Below, piece by piece: positions 128-6,120 of a DNA stretch of 6,120 nt (positions within the stretch are counted from its first letter, which is position 1; each line of letters opens with the position of its first letter). Origin of the DNA: Deltaproteobacteria bacterium (lineage in GTDB: Bacteria > Myxococcota > XYA12-FULL-58-9 > JAUUZB01); the NCBI GenBank assembly GCA_030590185.1, contig JAUUZB010000287.1, positions 1 to 6,120 of the forward strand, given 5' to 3'. Position numbers and translations under genes: made by a program. The notes under the pieces were generated by a model, which saw nothing but the letters and a program-made list of their open reading frames with translations, made no database searches and had not been told where the DNA came from.

Positions 128-1803
128 CGCTTCTCCTCCTTGGGGGCTTTGGGAACGGCCTCGGCGTGACAGTCGATGCAGCCGGTCTTCTTGATGCTCA
201 TCGACTCGTGACAGCCGATGCACTGGCGGTGGTAGGCGGCCTTGAGGCTCGGTTGGTCTCGGGTGGGGTGGGCCTTGGCGCCGTGGCAGGAACGGCAGGC
301 CGGCGGCCGGGTTGCGGGCGGGCTGTGATGATGGCAGCCGGCGCACAGGGTGGTGTCGGTGTGGAAGGCTCCGGCGAGTTTGTTCTCGCGGGCCTTGCGG
401 TCGAGGGTGGCGACGATTTTGCCGTGGGGGAGCTTGGAGGGTTGGTAGTCGCGGGCGAGGAGGTTGATGACTACGGTTTCGGGGAAGGCCTCCGAGAAGG
501 GGGGGAGCGGGGCGCGGGTCACGGGGGGGGACGGGGGCGGCGGGGGTTCCGGTGACAGTGTCGGCTCCGGTGACGGTGACGGTGACGGTGACAGTGACAG
601 TGACGGTGACGGTGACAGTTCCGGCGTCGGCGACAGTTCCGGTGACGGTGACGGTGTCGGGATGTTCGCGGTTGGGTCGGTGCCCTCCGGGAGCGCTGGC
701 GGGAGCCCGCCGCTGTGGCAGGTAGCGCAGGACTGCTCGGCGGGGGGAGGCGGCATGGCGGCGTGGCAGCCGGCGCAGGCGGGCACGTCGGTGGTCTGGC
801 GATGGCAGCCGACGCAGCTTCGGTCCGAGGTTGGCTCGTGAAAGGCGTTCGCCAGGGTCACGCCGCCGCCGTCCGGGCTACCGGTGAGGGTGTGGCATTT
901 GTCGCAGGCGGCGAGGGTCTGGTGGTGACAGGTGGAGCAGGACTCGGTTAGGGGCTCGTGGAGCTGGTGGTCGAAGGGTACGCGGCCGGCCTTGCCCCCG
1001 GCTGCTTGGATCCAGGTCCGGTCCGGTTGACCGCGCATCAGGCGGGGAATGGGATCGAGTTTCTTGATCGTGGCCCGTTCCTCGGCGCCGTGACACCCGG
1101 CGCAGCGTGACGGGCCGGTCTTCTGGTTCTTCTCTTCTCCGCCGAGGTGGCAGGTCACGCAGGCATCGTGGGCGGCGTTTCTCAGCGCCGGGGTGCGCTC
1201 GACCCGTTCGGCCCCGTGACAGTCGGTGCAGGCGCTCTCCTTGCCCTTGGCATAAACGAGCTTCTTGGCCTGCTCATCGTAGACGTGGTGGCAACCGTCG
1301 CATTTGTCCTGATGCGCGATGACGTGACGCGCGTGGAGCGAGTAGTCCATGCGCATGGCGAGCCGCTCGGCCGCGACGCCGGGGTGTGACCCATGACACT
1401 CGGCGCAGGTGACCGGCAGATTTCGTTTGAGCTCGACGCTCTTGGTGGCGTGACAGTCTAGGCAGCGCTGGTGGTAGAGCTCCATCAGGGCGTCCCGGGT
1501 GAGGGGATCCGGCCGGCGCTGAAAGGTGAACACCGGGCGTCCGTCTTCGCCCTTCGGGTGGCAGGCAACGCAGCCTTCCTTGGCCAGTGCCGCGACGTGC
1601 TTGCCGTGGGGGAACGCCACCAACGGGCGTTGCAACGAGCCGAGGGACGCGGGCCAGGGGATCTCCAGGGTGGAGCCATCGCTGGCGCGCTCCGCAACGC
1701 CGTCGCCGTTGCAGCCGATCAGGGCCACCCCGATTACCAGCGAGAGAGCTCCAAGCAGCTTCATGCCCTGTCTCAGATGTACCATCACTTCGTTCTCGCT
1801 CAC
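124..1803 (-). CDS. hmcA: HmcA-like 16-heme periplasmic cytochrome c, probable lipoprotein
   Basis: A 559-residue exported multiheme cytochrome c. Sixteen CxxCH motifs begin near residues 78, 114, 133, 168, 192, 215, 234, 289, 300, 330, 343, 359, 487, 503, 528 and 542. They group as 3+4+4+1+4, the class III (cytochrome c3) module plan known for Desulfovibrio HmcA, and the length is also close to that protein. Extra histidines before the modules (FPHGKH, YSLHARH, FDHQLH, AFH, AYH) are the expected distal heme ligands. The N-terminus carries a lipoprotein signal, MKLLGALSLVIGVALIGC from residue 14, with lipobox LIGC and Cys31. Residues 380-438 form a Ser-Pro linker that isolates the last four hemes. 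The listed GTG start gives a GTGA overlap with the upstream iron-sulfur gene; ATGs at 1785 and 1764 are alternatives, and no start has a clear Shine-Dalgarno. Likely role: an electron wire between small periplasmic cytochromes and the membrane complex. The symbol follows heme count and layout. A different 16-heme family is possible but less likely. Confidence 0.85.
   Translation of the reverse strand: MSENEVMVHLRQGMKLLGALSLVIGVALIGCNGDGVAERASDGSTLEIPWPASLGSLQRPLVAFPHGKHVAALAKEGCVACHPKGEDGRPVFTFQRRPDPLTRDALMELYHQRCLDCHATKSVELKRNLPVTCAECHGSHPGVAAERLAMRMDYSLHARHVIAHQDKCDGCHHVYDEQAKKLVYAKGKESACTDCHGAERVERTPALRNAAHDACVTCHLGGEEKNQKTGPSRCAGCHGAEERATIKKLDPIPRLMRGQPDRTWIQAAGGKAGRVPFDHQLHEPLTESCSTCHHQTLAACDKCHTLTGSPDGGGVTLANAFHEPTSDRSCVGCHRQTTDVPACAGCHAAMPPPPAEQSCATCHSGGLPPALPEGTDPTANIPTPSPSPELSPTPELSPSPSLSLSPSPSPSPEPTLSPEPPPPPSPPVTRAPLPPFSEAFPETVVINLLARDYQPSKLPHGKIVATLDRKARENKLAGAFHTDTTLCAGCHHHSPPATRPPACRSCHGAKAHPTRDQPSLKAAYHRQCIGCHESMSIKKTGCIDCHAEAVPKAPKEEKR
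135..141 (-). promoter_or_regulatory. Shine-Dalgarno AAGGAGG for the Tat-exported protein gene
   Basis: On the minus strand AAGGAGG lies 7 nt before the ATG at 127-125, inside the last codons of the cytochrome gene (the Lys-Glu-Glu-Lys tail). It is the best ribosome-binding site in the operon. It fixes the start of the downstream gene and suggests strong independent initiation in addition to coupling through the ATGA overlap. Confidence 0.85.
549..662 (-). repeat. Hexanucleotide tandem repeat encoding a Ser-Pro linker
   Basis: Read on the plus strand, 569-616 is eight uninterrupted RGTGAC hexamers (mostly GGTGAC, two AGTGAC). The same 6-bp phase continues less perfectly on both sides (GGTGAC at 551, 641 and 647, with AGTTCC, GGCGTC and GGTGTC variants). 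On the coding strand each unit reads TCA-CYG, giving Ser-Pro, or Ser-Leu where the transition occurs. This explains the SLSL step inside the SPSP run. The tract lies within the interdomain linker of the 16-heme cytochrome (about 490-666). Copy-number change would keep the frame. Confidence 0.9.
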
Positions 1804-3119
1804 GGCTCGGGCCGCTCGATGACCTTGACCAGCAGCTCATTGATGAAGCGGACGTGCATGCCGAGCTTGTAGTGCCCGATGACGTCCTCGATGCCGCTGT
1901 GGCAGTTGTGACAGGGCGTGATGCAGATGTCGGCGCCGGTCGCCTCGAGCTGCTCCGCCTTGACCCGGATGCTCTTCATGCGACTGAGCTTCCAGGGCGG
2001 GCCGCAGTTGATCACCCCGCCGCCGGCGGCGCAGCAGTAGTTGTGCTCGTGGCGGGGGTCCATGTCGCGAAAGTCTTCGCAGATGGCGTTGACCACGTAG
2101 CGGAGCTTGTCGTGCAGACCGCGGCCACGCACGATGTTGCAGGGGTCCTGCACCGTGACCGACTCCTTGATCTTCTCTTTGATCTTCAGCCGGCCGCTCT
2201 TGATCAGCTCGTAATAGAACTCGACCGCGTGGACCATCGGGACCGGCGGCTCCTTCCAGCCCAACCACTTGGGCCCGTCGTACACCGCGCCGCGGTAGGC
2301 ATGACCGCATTCACCCATCACCACCCGCTTGACCTTGAGGGCCATGGCCCGGTCCCAGTGCAAGCGCTCGACCCTGCCCATGATTTCAAAGTCGCCGGAG
2401 TACATCGCCATGTTGGAGTTGTCCCAGCCGTCGGCGCTGGGCATCGTCCAGCTCACGTTTGCCGCCGTCATGATCTGCGACATGTTGCCGAGTAGCTGGG
2501 CGAGGATCTTGGGCTCCGGCGCGATGACGCTGTACATGATCTCGGCGCCCTCGACGTCGAGGGGGATCTTGGAGCCGGGGAGCTCGTCGCGGGCATCCTC
2601 CTCCTGCCAGATCAACGTGTCGATCCACTCGTCCGGCTGAACCCACATCTGGTTCATGGTGGCGGCGTGGCTGTTGGTGGTGTCCTGGAGGTACTGCGGC
2701 ACGACCCCCAACAGGCTGCAGATGCGCCGCACGGTCATGATGAGATAGGAGATGTCGATGCCGAAGGGGCAATACATGCTGCAGCGCTTGCAGGCGCCAC
2801 ACTCGGTGAAGGCGATGCGTGCGGACTTGCGCAGCAGGGCACCATCGACCTTGCCCTTGCGGCGCACCATCTCCCACAGGGTGTCCTTGACCTTGGCCAC
2901 CGGGGCGTAGTCCGGGTCCTTGTCCCGTGACACGTAGGAGTGGCAGGCCTCGGCGCACAGGCCGCAGCGCACGCAGGTTTCGAGGTAGACTTTGAGTCGC
3001 GCCGCGCTCTCGTTGTCGAGCACGTGGCGGATGACCTTCTCGATTTTTTCCGGCGTTAGCTTGGCGATGGCGTCATCGATGCCGGGATCGACCACTGCTT
3101 CGTCGACTGGATCAGACAT
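1800..3119 (-). CDS. tmcB: TmcB/HmcF/DsrK-type iron-sulfur protein with CCG domain (HdrD-like)
   Basis: A 439-residue protein with no signal peptide, expected on the cytoplasmic face of the membrane. Two ferredoxin-type motifs bind [4Fe-4S] clusters: CVRCGLCAEAC (residues 49-59, followed by H rather than P) and CGACKRCSMYCP (107-118). The C-terminal half holds one complete CCG (cysteine-rich) motif: C327 in DPCN, C362-C363 in YCCAAGGG, and C403/C406 in PCHNCH. This arrangement binds the noncubane cluster of heterodisulfide reductase. The expected first CCG unit is degenerate: ECGHA at about 270 keeps one Cys, and the region near residues 230-234 (DGWDN) has no CC pair. Thus a single catalytic cluster is predicted, as I recall for the DsrK/HmcF/TmcB group. 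It would take electrons from the cytochrome b subunit and pass them to a thiol/disulfide or other cytoplasmic acceptor. GAGG lies 9 nt before the ATG; the gene is 18 bp downstream of the membrane subunit. HmcF is an equally valid name; the neighbouring propeller gene favours TmcB. Confidence 0.88.
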   Translation of the reverse strand: MSDPVDEAVVDPGIDDAIAKLTPEKIEKVIRHVLDNESAARLKVYLETCVRCGLCAEACHSYVSRDKDPDYAPVAKVKDTLWEMVRRKGKVDGALLRKSARIAFTECGACKRCSMYCPFGIDISYLIMTVRRICSLLGVVPQYLQDTTNSHAATMNQMWVQPDEWIDTLIWQEEDARDELPGSKIPLDVEGAEIMYSVIAPEPKILAQLLGNMSQIMTAANVSWTMPSADGWDNSNMAMYSGDFEIMGRVERLHWDRAMALKVKRVVMGECGHAYRGAVYDGPKWLGWKEPPVPMVHAVEFYYELIKSGRLKIKEKIKESVTVQDPCNIVRGRGLHDKLRYVVNAICEDFRDMDPRHEHNYCCAAGGGVINCGPPWKLSRMKSIRVKAEQLEATGADICITPCHNCHSGIEDVIGHYKLGMHVRFINELLVKVIERPEP

Positions 3120-3137: not shown

Positions 3138-3785
3138 TTACCAATCCCGCGACCGGCGCACGGCGCCGAACTCGCTGCCCATGTACGCCCGGGTGAACAC
3201 GAACCAGATCACGTGGGCCAGGCGGGTGAAGGGAATCGCCACCAGCCACACCACTCCGGTTGAAATGTGGAGGATGACGGCGGTCCGCGCCGGGAGCCAT
3301 TGTTGGTGGGCGATGAAGCCGGTGAGGAACGGCGACACCACCAACAGGGCGATGGCGTAGTCGCGCCAGGTCGAGACGTTGCGCACCTCCGGCGCGGCGA
3401 TGCGGCGCAGGACGAAGAAGGTCACCCCGATGATCACCACGATGGTCATCACGTCGGTGGCGAGCGGCGGTAGGCTCCACCAGCTGATCCCCCAGGCCTC
3501 CTCCCACAGCACCGCGTGTCCCATGGCGAACAGTGGTGTAATCAACACACAGAGGTGAAAGGCGAAGGAGACGGCGCTCATCACCGGATGGGCCCGCATG
3601 TTGAGGCTGTTGTAGGGGATCATCCAGTGCATGAGGGAACGCAGGCCAAACTTGACGCTCATGGTCGGGAAGACCGTCTTTTCCTGCTTGGCCAGCAGCC
3701 CCATGCTCATCAGTCGGTAGAGGGTGCCGCCGACTAGGCCGATGAAGGCGAGCCACACCAGCGGTCCACTCACGAGCTCGTACAT
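3138..3785 (-). CDS. tmcC: Membrane cytochrome b subunit, TmcC/HmcE/DsrM (NarI-like) type
   Basis: A 215-residue integral membrane protein with about five predicted helices (roughly residues 5-28, 68-92, 108-127, 141-158 and 168-196), the size and topology of the gamma/NarI-like subunits of nitrate reductase, DsrMKJOP, Hmc and Tmc complexes. Candidate axial heme b ligands are H66, H77 and H90 in or near helix 2, and H173 and H191 in helix 5; NarI-type proteins use His pairs from these two helices for two b hemes. H53 and H160 are further histidines near helix ends. The loop SLMHWMIPYNSLNMRAHP between helices 1 and 2 resembles DsrM/HmcE-type proteins. It likely carries electrons between the periplasmic cytochrome module and the CCG protein encoded 18 bp downstream, and may couple to quinone or proton movement; that is inference. 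GAGGAGA lies 6 nt before the ATG, in the 15-bp gap after the propeller gene. TmcC versus HmcE cannot be settled by sequence alone here. Confidence 0.85.
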   Translation of the reverse strand: MYELVSGPLVWLAFIGLVGGTLYRLMSMGLLAKQEKTVFPTMSVKFGLRSLMHWMIPYNSLNMRAHPVMSAVSFAFHLCVLITPLFAMGHAVLWEEAWGISWWSLPPLATDVMTIVVIIGVTFFVLRRIAAPEVRNVSTWRDYAIALLVVSPFLTGFIAHQQWLPARTAVILHISTGVVWLVAIPFTRLAHVIWFVFTRAYMGSEFGAVRRSRDW

Positions 3786-3800: not shown

Positions 3801-5063
3801 TCAGCCTATGATCTCGGTGACCGGGATCACCTCGCGCAGGTACTTGCCGTCCGCGACACCGCGCACCAGGAGCTTTTGACCGTCCGAACTGAAGACCGGA
3901 TCCCAGAGGCGCTCGCGTTGCTGCCCCCAGGGTCGGCCGTTGATCGCGAGGCTGTAGTGCCCGTCGCGATCTACCTTGGCGGCCACCAGCTCACCGTTGG
4001 GGCTGAAGACCGGGTCCCAGATCATGTCGAAGGTGCTCGACCAGGGCTGGCCATCGACCGCCATGGTCCAGCGGTTGTCGTCCTTGACGATGGCCGCCAC
4101 CCGCCGGCCGTCCGGGGAGAAGTGGGGCTTCATCACCAGATCGCCGACCGTGAACGGCCAGGGTCGGTCGTCAACGGCGATCGTCCAGCGTCCGTAGCTC
4201 GGCGCGACCACCGCGGCGAGACGCGCCCCGTCCGGGCTAGCGACGGTGTTCCAGAGTTGCACGTACCGACCGTCCCAGACTGGTTTGTCGTTCTCCGCCA
4301 GGGTCCAGGCGCCCCGCTGGCGGACCGGCATGACGATCCGGTCGGTGCCGCGGAAGATCGGCTCCCAAACGCAGCCATAGGGAGTAGCCCAGAGTTTCTC
4401 ATTCTCGGCCACCGTGTAATCACAGACGTCGGTGCGCACTTCGGCGGCGACCCGTTGACCGTCGGGGCTGAGGATGGGGCCATAGACGTTGAGGAAGTGC
4501 TGTGCCCAGGCCTTGCCATCGACCGCCAGACCCCAGGTGCCCTCCAGAAACTTGAAGATGTCGGCTTCCGGAAGCTCCTCGACCTGCACCGTGGCCGCCA
4601 CGTGTTGGCCGTCGTCGCTGAGCGCGTACTCGCGTAGGGAGAAAAAGTTTTCCTCCCACGCCTTGCCGTTGACCGCGATCGAGTAGGCCATGTCGCGTTT
4701 GATCTGCACCGCGATAGCGCTGCCGTCCGGGGTGAGCTTCGGGTTCCAGACGAACTCCCAGCGCTCCGGCCAGAGCTCGCCGTCGACCCCGACGGTCCAC
4801 TCGTCGTCGACCCGCACCAGGCTGAGCAGGCGACCGTCCGCCGTGAACTGCAGCTGCAGGGCCTTTTCGAGCTCATCGGCCCAGGGCTCGCCGTTGGCCA
4901 CCACCCGCAGGCGATCCGGCTCCATCTCCACCACCGCCCCGAGCCGCTCGCCGTCGGGGCTCACCGCCACGTAGAGGATCTGCTCGCCGCCCGGGGTCAA
5001 GGCGTTGAGGTCGGCCACCTCTCGCTTTTCGATCCCCCAATTCCAGCTCTCGAGCTCGACCAT
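3801..5063 (-). CDS. tmcD: TmcD-like cytoplasmic beta-propeller (WD40/PD40-like) protein
   Basis: A 420-residue soluble protein with no signal peptide or membrane segment. From about residue 28 to the end it consists of some ten imperfect units of 36-50 residues with the pattern [W/Y]-x-P-x-[F/L]-S-P-D-G-x-x-[V/L]-A-A-x-V, then [W/Y]-[T/S]-[I/L/M]-A-V-[D/N]-G-x-x-W. This is the rhythm of WD40/TolB-like (PD40) blades; the conserved Trp at blade ends makes it Trp-rich. Unit 4 has an insertion (PEADIFKFLEGT). Established knowledge: TmcD of the Desulfovibrio transmembrane complex is a Trp-rich protein with WD40-like repeats and unknown function. It is the first gene of this operon, directly behind the sigma54 promoter, with GGAGA 4 nt before the ATG. 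With no catalytic or cofactor motif visible, a scaffold role on the cytoplasmic face for the CCG subunit is my inference. Other PD40-repeat proteins are possible; the adjacent cytochrome b and CCG genes make TmcD the best match. Confidence 0.78.
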   Translation of the reverse strand: MVELESWNWGIEKREVADLNALTPGGEQILYVAVSPDGERLGAVVEMEPDRLRVVANGEPWADELEKALQLQFTADGRLLSLVRVDDEWTVGVDGELWPERWEFVWNPKLTPDGSAIAVQIKRDMAYSIAVNGKAWEENFFSLREYALSDDGQHVAATVQVEELPEADIFKFLEGTWGLAVDGKAWAQHFLNVYGPILSPDGQRVAAEVRTDVCDYTVAENEKLWATPYGCVWEPIFRGTDRIVMPVRQRGAWTLAENDKPVWDGRYVQLWNTVASPDGARLAAVVAPSYGRWTIAVDDRPWPFTVGDLVMKPHFSPDGRRVAAIVKDDNRWTMAVDGQPWSSTFDMIWDPVFSPNGELVAAKVDRDGHYSLAINGRPWGQQRERLWDPVFSSDGQKLLVRGVADGKYLREVIPVTEIIG

Positions 5064-5064
5064 A

Positions 5065-5072
5065 CTCTCTCC
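5065..5072 (-). promoter_or_regulatory. Ribosome-binding site GGAGAGAG of the first operon gene
   Basis: GGAGAGAG on the minus strand ends one base before the ATG at 5063; its GGAGA core is 4 nt upstream, slightly close. It supports this ATG as the start of the propeller gene and leaves a leader of only about 37 nt from the predicted transcription start near 5100. Confidence 0.65.
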
Positions 5073-5110
5073 GAATCCGTCTGCGGTCGTTCCGTTGGAC
5101 CAAGATTATT

Positions 5111-5127
5111 TGCAAACAGTGCGCCAA
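5111..5127 (-). promoter_or_regulatory. sigma54 (-24/-12) promoter for the Tmc/Hmc operon
   Basis: On the minus strand the element reads TTGGCGCACTGTTTGCA. The GG and GC dinucleotides are separated by exactly 10 bp, and 11 of the 13 defined positions of the YTGGCACG-N4-TTGCW consensus match; the misses are the A and final G of TGGCACG. An A/T-rich stretch (AATAATCTTG) follows the -12 GC, as is common at these promoters. The predicted start point is near 5100, about 37 nt before the ATG of the first operon gene. No comparable sigma70-type -35/-10 pair was seen in this gap. Transcription would need RpoN and an active enhancer-binding protein. Confidence 0.8.
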
Positions 5128-5197
5128 CCTCGACCGGGGGAGAGCCGCGTTTGGCCGCCCCGTGAGCGCGCCCCGGGGCAACCGGCCGCTGCCACGT

Positions 5198-5215
5198 TGC
5201 AACTGCTGCGTTGCA
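5198..5215. promoter_or_regulatory. Operator/enhancer-like inverted repeat TGCAAC-N6-GTTGCA (promoter-proximal)
   Basis: This is a perfect 6-bp-arm inverted repeat, TGCAAC-TGCTGC-GTTGCA on the plus strand, centred about 106 bp upstream of the predicted sigma54 transcription start. That is a usual distance for upstream activating sequences of Fis-HTH enhancer-binding proteins. It abuts a second 18-bp inverted repeat without a gap. A further half-site GGCAACC lies at 5177-5183, nearer the promoter. Which protein binds it is not shown by the sequence. Confidence 0.6.
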
Positions 5216-5233
5216 TGTTGCGAAACGGCAACA
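5216..5233. promoter_or_regulatory. Operator/enhancer-like inverted repeat TGTTGC-N6-GCAACA (promoter-distal)
   Basis: This is a perfect 6-bp-arm inverted repeat, TGTTGC-GAAACG-GCAACA on the plus strand, centred about 124 bp upstream of the predicted transcription start and 18 bp (close to two helical turns) from the centre of its neighbour. Its TGT...ACA ends resemble NtrC-family binding sites. It lies 11 bp downstream of the stop codon of the regulator gene. No T-run follows the dyad on the minus strand, so a terminator role is unlikely. Confidence 0.6.
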
Positions 5234-5244
5234 CGAAGAGGGCC

Positions 5245-6120
5245 CTAGGATTCGATCTTGTAGCGCTTCAATTTGCGCCAAAGGGTCGTGCGGTGCATGC
5301 CGAGCTCGCGGGCCACGCGGGTGACGTTGCCGTTGAGTCGTTCGAGGGTGTTGCGGATGGTGCGCTCCTCGAGTCGGGCTTGCCGGACGCGCCAGGGCAT
5401 GGTCGCGGGCGCATCGGGCCCTGGGCGGTGGGGCGGCAGGGCGAGGTCGTCGACGTCGATCAAGCGTCCCCCGCAGGCCGCGTGGGCCTGGCCGAGCACG
5501 TTGCGCAGTTGCCGCACGTTGCCCGGCAGATCCGCCGTCATCAGTCGTTGCATCGCAGCGGCGCTCAAGCCCTCGACGAGATCTCTGCCCTCCTCGCTGC
5601 TTCGCTCGGCGTTGAGGGCTTCGATGAAATGATCGACCAACAGGGGGATGTCCTCCCGGCGCTCGCGCAGTCCGGGGAGGATGAGATGGAGGACGTTGAG
5701 GCGGTAGTAGAGGTCCTGGCGAAAGCTGCCGTCCGTGACGCCCTCCTCCAGCCGGCCGGTGGCGGTGGCGATCAAGCGCACGTCTGAAGCGTGCGCGTCA
5801 TCCTCGAGCCAAGCGAGCAGCGAGCGCTGCAACCCGGCGGGGGCGGCGCCAACGTTCTCGAGGACCAGGGTGCCGCCGGCGAGTCGCTCGGCGAAGTCGG
5901 CTCCGAGGTGATCGACCAGGCGTTGGTCGCGTCCCACCTCGTCGCAGCGCAGGTGCAGCAGCGGGCTCTCGGCGCAATCGCAGCCGAGACGGTGGATGGT
6001 CTCGGCGAGGGCCGCCCGACCCGCGCCGGGCTCGCCCATGATGACGAGCGCCGCTCGGCTGTTGGCGAGGTTGGGTAGGGCGTCGAAGATCTGCCGCATC
6101 TCCGGCGTGCGACTCACGAA
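5245..6120 (-). CDS. NtrC/EBP-like regulator with degenerate AAA+ domain and Fis-type HTH (C-terminal part)
   Basis: The reading frame is open to the right edge, where VSRTPEMRQIF corresponds to the start of a sigma54-activator AAA+ domain. The GTG at 6117 is therefore probably an internal Val, and any sensory N-terminus lies outside. Numbering from that codon: a degenerate Walker A, GEPGAGRA (28-35), with Arg in place of the Lys; a degenerate Walker B, GGTLVLENV (81-89), with EN in place of DE; no GAFTGA anywhere between them; a shortened pre-sensor-I segment (WLEDDAHASDVRLIA, 103-117). Better kept are FRQDLYYRLNV (132-142), with both arginine-finger positions, LRERREDIPLL (150-160), and the sensor II region PGNVRQLRN (198-206). 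A Fis-type helix-turn-helix fills 246-290 (NGNVTRVARELGMHRTTLWRKLKRYKI). Known family members use ATP hydrolysis and GAFTGA to remodel sigma54 holoenzyme. This one looks unable to do so, but should still bind DNA, perhaps at the palindromes just behind its stop codon. It could be a repressor, a co-regulator or a partner in mixed hexamers. Confidence 0.85.
   Translation of the reverse strand, partial: FVSRTPEMRQIFDALPNLANSRAALVIMGEPGAGRAALAETIHRLGCDCAESPLLHLRCDEVGRDQRLVDHLGADFAERLAGGTLVLENVGAAPAGLQRSLLAWLEDDAHASDVRLIATATGRLEEGVTDGSFRQDLYYRLNVLHLILPGLRERREDIPLLVDHFIEALNAERSSEEGRDLVEGLSAAAMQRLMTADLPGNVRQLRNVLGQAHAACGGRLIDVDDLALPPHRPGPDAPATMPWRVRQARLEERTIRNTLERLNGNVTRVARELGMHRTTLWRKLKRYKIES

Follow-up and report, generated by a model that had tools for sequence, protein, structure and literature searches.

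An enhancer-binding-protein relative without ATPase motifs, and its possible role at a sigma54-like promoter of a tmc operon

Promoters of the sigma54 type require an ATP-hydrolysing activator and are held silent until its ATPase ring acts. Such activators, the bacterial enhancer-binding proteins (bEBPs), include the hetero-oligomeric pair HrpR/HrpS, whose partners are both near-intact AAA+ activators. Another, the DVU2106 protein ('OrpR'), is said to be an Fe-S redox sensor. DVU2106 is reported as the activator of the orp operons of D. vulgaris and as carrying the motif GAFTDA (in a passage of PMC4641369), and it is described as acting at palindromes that precede sigma54 promoters, at -131 and -88 (in a passage of PMC3897727). 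Homologues without the GAFTGA motif have also been described as regulators: VpsR, TyrR, DhaR, HupR, YplP and the NtrC proteins of Rhodobacter and Caulobacter. Within the relevant passages of PMC3162934 and PMC10274813, the TyrR, DhaR, HupR and NtrC cases are given as acting with sigma70, and VpsR and YplP as probably working without sigma54; Caulobacter NtrC is stated to require Walker A and Walker B residues, and R. capsulatus NtrC to require ATP binding (PMC10274813). Here we describe a regulator encoded at one end of a 6,120-nt stretch of a deltaproteobacterial contig (JAUUZB010000287.1), hereafter the window. Like the homologues just listed it has lost GAFTGA and kept a DNA-binding domain; unlike them it has lost its Walker motifs too, and the promoter beside it looks sigma54-dependent. 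We propose, with a probability of roughly one half, that it is a dead paralogue controlled by a PAS domain; bound at the enhancer from which a sigma54-dependent tmc promoter is driven, this paralogue would antagonise or tune an intact activator.

The regulator frame (5245–6120, minus strand) is open, with zero internal stops. It encodes the C-terminal 291 residues of the protein, the N-terminus lying beyond the window, and matches Sigma54_activat (PF00158, 67.5 bits against a cut-off of 20.2), AAA_lid_14 and HTH_8. A first-pass annotation of this DNA had read it as a protein of enhancer-binding origin, uninterrupted in frame and not simply decayed, that had lost its remodelling residues, and it held up well against the Pfam matches and alignments. 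Walker A persists as GEPGAGRA (6036–6013), with Arg in place of Lys, and Walker B as LENV (5862–5851), with Glu-Asn in place of Asp-Glu, both where the annotation had put them. It had also called two segments short, by about 13 and 10 residues. Counted from Walker A to GGT, the window protein has 46 residues where 77 canonical rows average 57.6, and is 12 short; counted from Walker B to sensor I, it has 22 where the canonical mean is 31.0, and is 9 short. Neither GAFTGA nor a Lys-bearing P-loop was recovered for the window regulator by the alignments, and the second sigma54 loop is missing along with the first. The sensor I region reads IATAT (5758–5772) and lacks its Thr.

Other parts are kept. 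The arginine-finger segment FRQDLYYRL (5698–5724) is intact by alignment, GNVRQL lies at 5506–5523, and the Fis-type recognition helix HRTTLWRKLKRY (5260–5295, all on the minus strand), located by HTH_8 and alignment, is identical in 12 of 12 residues to that of L091, a canonical regulator with the same type of DNA repeat at its locus as in the window (see below). The annotation had called sensor II intact as well; its Arg is kept, but its Glu has become Gln. Residue roles, including the glutamate switch at N64, were transferred by us to the alignment from PspF, for which residues with ATPase and switch roles are named in a passage of PMC12054792. Set against what a functional sigma54 bEBP carries, the protein has the domain homology and fails at the Walker A Lys, the Walker B Asp-Glu and the GAFTGA loop 1. 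The alignments thus confirm, at the level of sequence, the C-terminal part of an AAA+ bEBP without the residues for remodelling sigma54 holoenzyme. We predict that the AAA+ fold survives; what is gone are the residues that hydrolyse ATP and the two loops that contact sigma54.

The same losses recur in other proteins. We pooled relatives from a protein search and a profile search, keeping the best 120 of each list. Among the resulting 226 listed proteins, 207 have Lys in the column of the Walker A Lys and 18 have Arg there, while one (P0218) is gapped. The 18 Arg relatives and the window protein make up 19 rows, termed here the dead clade. In the protein search P0001–P0016 matched at 42–62% identity, and canonical activators followed from P0017 on at 34–41%; the score shows no sharp step between the two (190 bits for P0016, 184 for P0017), and it is the motif that makes the split. 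The profile search brought in P0121 and P0122; its listed matches did not include P0014 or P0016. Within the dead clade the Walker B Asp is missing from 19/19 rows, with the Glu retained in four; the sensor I Thr is missing from 19/19; GAFTGA is likewise missing from all 19, P0002 having different residues in those columns; and the columns of the second sigma54 loop hold at most one residue. The glutamate-switch column, N in 64 of the 77 canonical rows, has drifted to R (6), S (3), K (3), N (2) and others (5).

With the loss columns removed, the window protein and the 18 Arg relatives formed a single clade with support of 100/100, nested in canonical PAS/AAA+/Fis activators; this is strong evidence from the sequences for counting the window protein among the ATPase-dead group. 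We claim no sister group for it, since the grouping is unstable between the two trees. The trees also bear on the thought that the protein is a decaying pseudogene or a product of sequence or assembly error. The stem branch of the clade is long (1.05–1.2 changes per column) and a few members lack further residues, as decay would have it; against this stand the open frame, 36 conserved columns specific to the clade, and the sharing of the same losses by 18 database relatives, which makes chance, lone decay or assembly error very unlikely. We regard this explanation as close to negligible.

The Walker A Arg is invariant in the dead clade: it occupies the position in 19/19 rows, within a conserved GxxGxGR, and Lys does so in 87/87 canonical and control rows. 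Such constancy would suit a protein with residual or altered activity, in which the Arg-bearing P-loop binds a nucleotide or cyclic dinucleotide as a ligand switch. A precedent is VfmH, whose binding of c-di-GMP is stated, in a passage of PMC10714721, to need three Arg, one of them just past Walker A. The degeneracy of Walker B, sensor I and the glutamate-switch column speaks against it, and we consider it improbable.

What the clade has retained is the first R-finger Arg (16/19), the second (19/19) and the sensor II Arg (18/19), with the cis ATPase residues gone. This pattern is the ground for the main rival, next after the antagonist reading, which is that the dead subunit enters mixed rings with a putative intact paralogue, giving Arg fingers in trans with neither hydrolysis nor sigma54 contact of its own and yielding a tuned activator. 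Passages of PMC12054792 describe PspF R-fingers as acting on the neighbouring protomer, with hydrolysis-ready density clear in one protomer. The second Arg, that of YRL, may instead be structural. Such a ring, built from two different paralogues, would resemble that of HrpR/HrpS, with the difference that both of those partners are near-intact. We hold the mixed ring as a tentative alternative, kept in view by the retained fingers. The first-pass annotation had suggested that the protein may compete or co-assemble with a true activator; both remain proposals, better grounded now by a candidate operator and the retained Arg fingers.

The sensory part of the protein is predicted from its relatives. 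In 16 of 16 clade members whose sequence reaches the motif, the PAS domain has all three of its conserved Cys (C-x8-C-x3-C), which agrees with the sensing N-terminus expected by the annotation, although the window regulator's own N-terminus is outside the window. Trees placed the clade within the PAS-Cys family, so that its origin lies among sigma54 activators of the PAS-Cys type that resemble DVU2106. Canonical members are like DVU2106 as described in the passages cited above, in having GAFTDA, a palindrome ahead of a sigma54-like promoter and, where scanned, orp/mrp-like targets. The window regulator differs from DVU2106 in that its ATPase motifs and both sigma54 loops are gone and its predicted target is tmc; the GAFTDA-type loop and intact ATPase residues of the PAS-Cys activators are absent from it. 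Kinship to DVU2106 is drawn from targets and motif and claims no equality of sites.

No member of the dead clade turned up among the loci returned and examined from sequenced genomes, a weak negative that covers the matches with a locus. The sets were the class of G194 (8 genomes), the class of G006 (3), the phylum of G001 at E 1e-105 (395 genomes, four candidates each) and at 1e-85 (148 genomes, 12 each), and the phyla of G005 (343 genomes) and G002 (349), with five candidates each. The best matches from the 395 genomes, L091 and L092, were canonical. A scan of genome contigs with the window protein gave five relatives, every one with the Walker A Lys, and a viral scan with query A2 gave two, both with Lys. 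Within the open-access literature the clade appears to be undescribed so far. The gapped protein P0218 (189 aa, on a 2432-base contig) has a PAS domain of the same Cys pattern fused directly to a Fis HTH, the AAA+ domain missing; it may mark where this lineage can end, or be an artefact.

Downstream of the regulator the window has an arrangement suggestive of an enhancer and its promoter. An operator-like inverted repeat, GTTGC-N6-GCAAC (GTTGCGAAACGGCAAC, 5217–5232), lies 12 nt past the regulator stop codon, and extra GTTGC/GCAAC half-sites (TGCAAC-N6-GTTGCA, 5196–5216) adjoin it. It is the only such repeat in the whole window, against 0.04 expected, and nine of 200 window shuffles had one. 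Then follows a sigma54-type promoter-like site, TGGCGCACTGTTTGCA (5126–5111, minus strand), with two mismatches and correct GG/GC spacing, its start 106 nt from that of the repeat, and after it tmcD, whose gap from the regulator stop measures 181 bases. The order is thus dead regulator, repeat, sigma54-like site, tmcD, and the adjacent sigma54 promoter named in the annotation is matched by this site. The case for the site is argued from its position, the match being unremarkable by count. We rejected the repeat as a terminator: there is no terminator-like site there and no T run behind it, either in the window or in 13 canonical copies; the terminator scan gave a single match, at 5007–5021 on the plus strand.

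These elements also bear on whether the protein is a regulator of the sigma70 type, comparable to VpsR, TyrR, HupR or R. capsulatus NtrC, turning a housekeeping promoter on or off without sigma54. Those proteins are described as regulators despite the loss of GAFTGA; against the idea, a sigma54-like site and an enhancer-like repeat at a usual distance adjoin the regulator. A crude scan found no sigma70-like site at 4950–5300, which counts little, as only 0.1 was expected by chance. We think this role unlikely.

The repeat-promoter module is shared with intact relatives. We compared 43 canonical PAS-Cys regulator loci (L076–L092, L095–L120), all 43 with the Cys motif, to 30 bEBP control loci (L121–L150); the canonical loci are not independent, L079–L082, L088 and L089 all coming from one class of 8 genomes. 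The exact repeat (spacer 4–7) occurred within 350 bases downstream in 11 of the 43, against 0.03 expected from base shuffles and one of the 30 controls; in two more canonical loci it lay upstream instead. With one mismatch and spacers of 5–6, it was found downstream in 23/43, against 0.45 in shuffles and 0/30 controls, and inside genes (first 350 bases) in 2/43. All 11 exact-repeat loci had a sigma54-like site (score 9–12 of 12) within 500 bases after the repeat, a raw count without a shuffle baseline. The window has the same succession of repeat and sigma54-like site, an element defined here from the 43 loci, some of which are without it. In L079–L082, L088–L092, L108 and L109 the element has the form GTTGC-N5/7-GCAAC and precedes a sigma54-like site; some of these loci add a second dyad, which in L079, L080, L088 and L089 is perfect or nearly so and directly behind the repeat. 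Of ten open reading frames downstream of the repeat in eight canonical loci, nine matched MrpORP, all at scores under its cut-off, and are either ORP-like (Nitro_FeMo-Co) or Mrp/NBP35-like; the tenth encodes a HAMP/PAS sensor. GTTGC-N5/7-GCAAC is a candidate operator of the PAS-Cys activator family of orp/mrp-like genes.

The antagonist reading can be put together from these parts. Since the Fis helix is retained, we predict that the dead regulator binds the GTTGC-N6-GCAAC repeat in the gap that separates the regulator gene from tmcD. The repeat is upstream of a sigma54-like promoter, and promoters of the sigma54 kind depend on an activator that hydrolyses ATP; an intact paralogue, encoded at some other locus, is therefore expected to bind the same repeat and turn tmc on. 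The dead regulator would occupy the enhancer and block or tune that activator, and the PAS/Cys domain would set the timing of the block. We infer the binding, the partner and the antagonistic sign from the motif losses, the clade and the shared module. For the clade at large the chances look evenly balanced that these are pseudo-ATPase bEBPs at sigma54 enhancers, serving as antagonists or as ring subunits that hydrolyse nothing themselves but supply Arg fingers to an intact paralogue, with P0218 hinting that the AAA+ domain can be shed entirely.

The link to tmc was surveyed in 395 genomes drawn from the phylum of G001, in 40 of which TmcD scored above cut-off; 40 of the 41 above-cut-off places were analysed as tmcD loci. 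A GAFTDA regulator was inside the analysed stretch in eight of these. Directly upstream of tmcD an intact regulator was found in one, L038, together with the repeat GTTGCATAATGCAAC; by eye, a TGGCACG-N4-TTGT site, uncounted by the GC rule of our script, also precedes tmcD there. The window arrangement therefore exists elsewhere, with an intact activator replacing the dead one. We dropped the broader notion of tmc being generally under repeat/sigma54 control, most of the 40 loci having neither in the 500 bp upstream of tmcD; such wiring is only occasional, not usual, for tmc. In four loci (L046, L047, L050, L052) tmcD/tmcC were flanked by two tmcB-like genes.

Several observations weigh against a dead antagonist at a sigma54 enhancer of tmc. 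Among the 40 loci, the repeat lies within 500 bp upstream of tmcD only in L038, and a sigma54 match scoring at least 9 within that distance only in L053. In the window as a whole sigma54-like matches are not rare (two found, 1.12 expected, as many in 61 of 200 shuffles), and behind the canonical repeats such sites are the uncontrolled raw counts given above. Nearly half of the canonical loci (20/43) have not even a one-mismatch repeat downstream, a few of these being short-flanked. The module has been seen beside one dead member only, that of the window, and the invariant Walker A Arg could reflect residual nucleotide binding.

A conserved dead paralogue at an enhancer would add a layer of control, as a natural dominant negative or in a mixed ring, that is seldom considered, and would tie an electron-transfer complex of the sulfate-respiration type to a PAS/Cys sensor. 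The GTTGC-N5/6-GCAAC repeat makes the idea testable by DNA binding and competition, and can serve as a model of the binding site for an activator family that is widespread.

The remainder of the window holds the probable target operon, with the minus-strand order regulator 3' part, tmcD, tmcC, tmcB-like gene and HmcA-like cytochrome gene. The first gene of the operon, tmcD (3801–5063), matches NF045725 at 508.5 bits (cut-off 440), and tmcC (3138–3785) matches NF045723 at 285 bits (cut-off 240). The tmcB-like Fe-S protein gene (1800–3119) scores 711 bits with NF045724, just below the cut-off of 735. Behind these the HmcA-like cytochrome c gene (124–1803; NF045713, 478.6 bits, cut-off 400) encodes 16 CxxCH motifs, making this a Tmc/Hmc hybrid operon; a long Pro/Ser-rich linker separates two heme parts of the cytochrome. 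The start of another minus-strand gene (2–127), with the twin-arginine-like signal MSVSRRGFLTG, is cut by the window end and is possibly the next hmc/tmc subunit.
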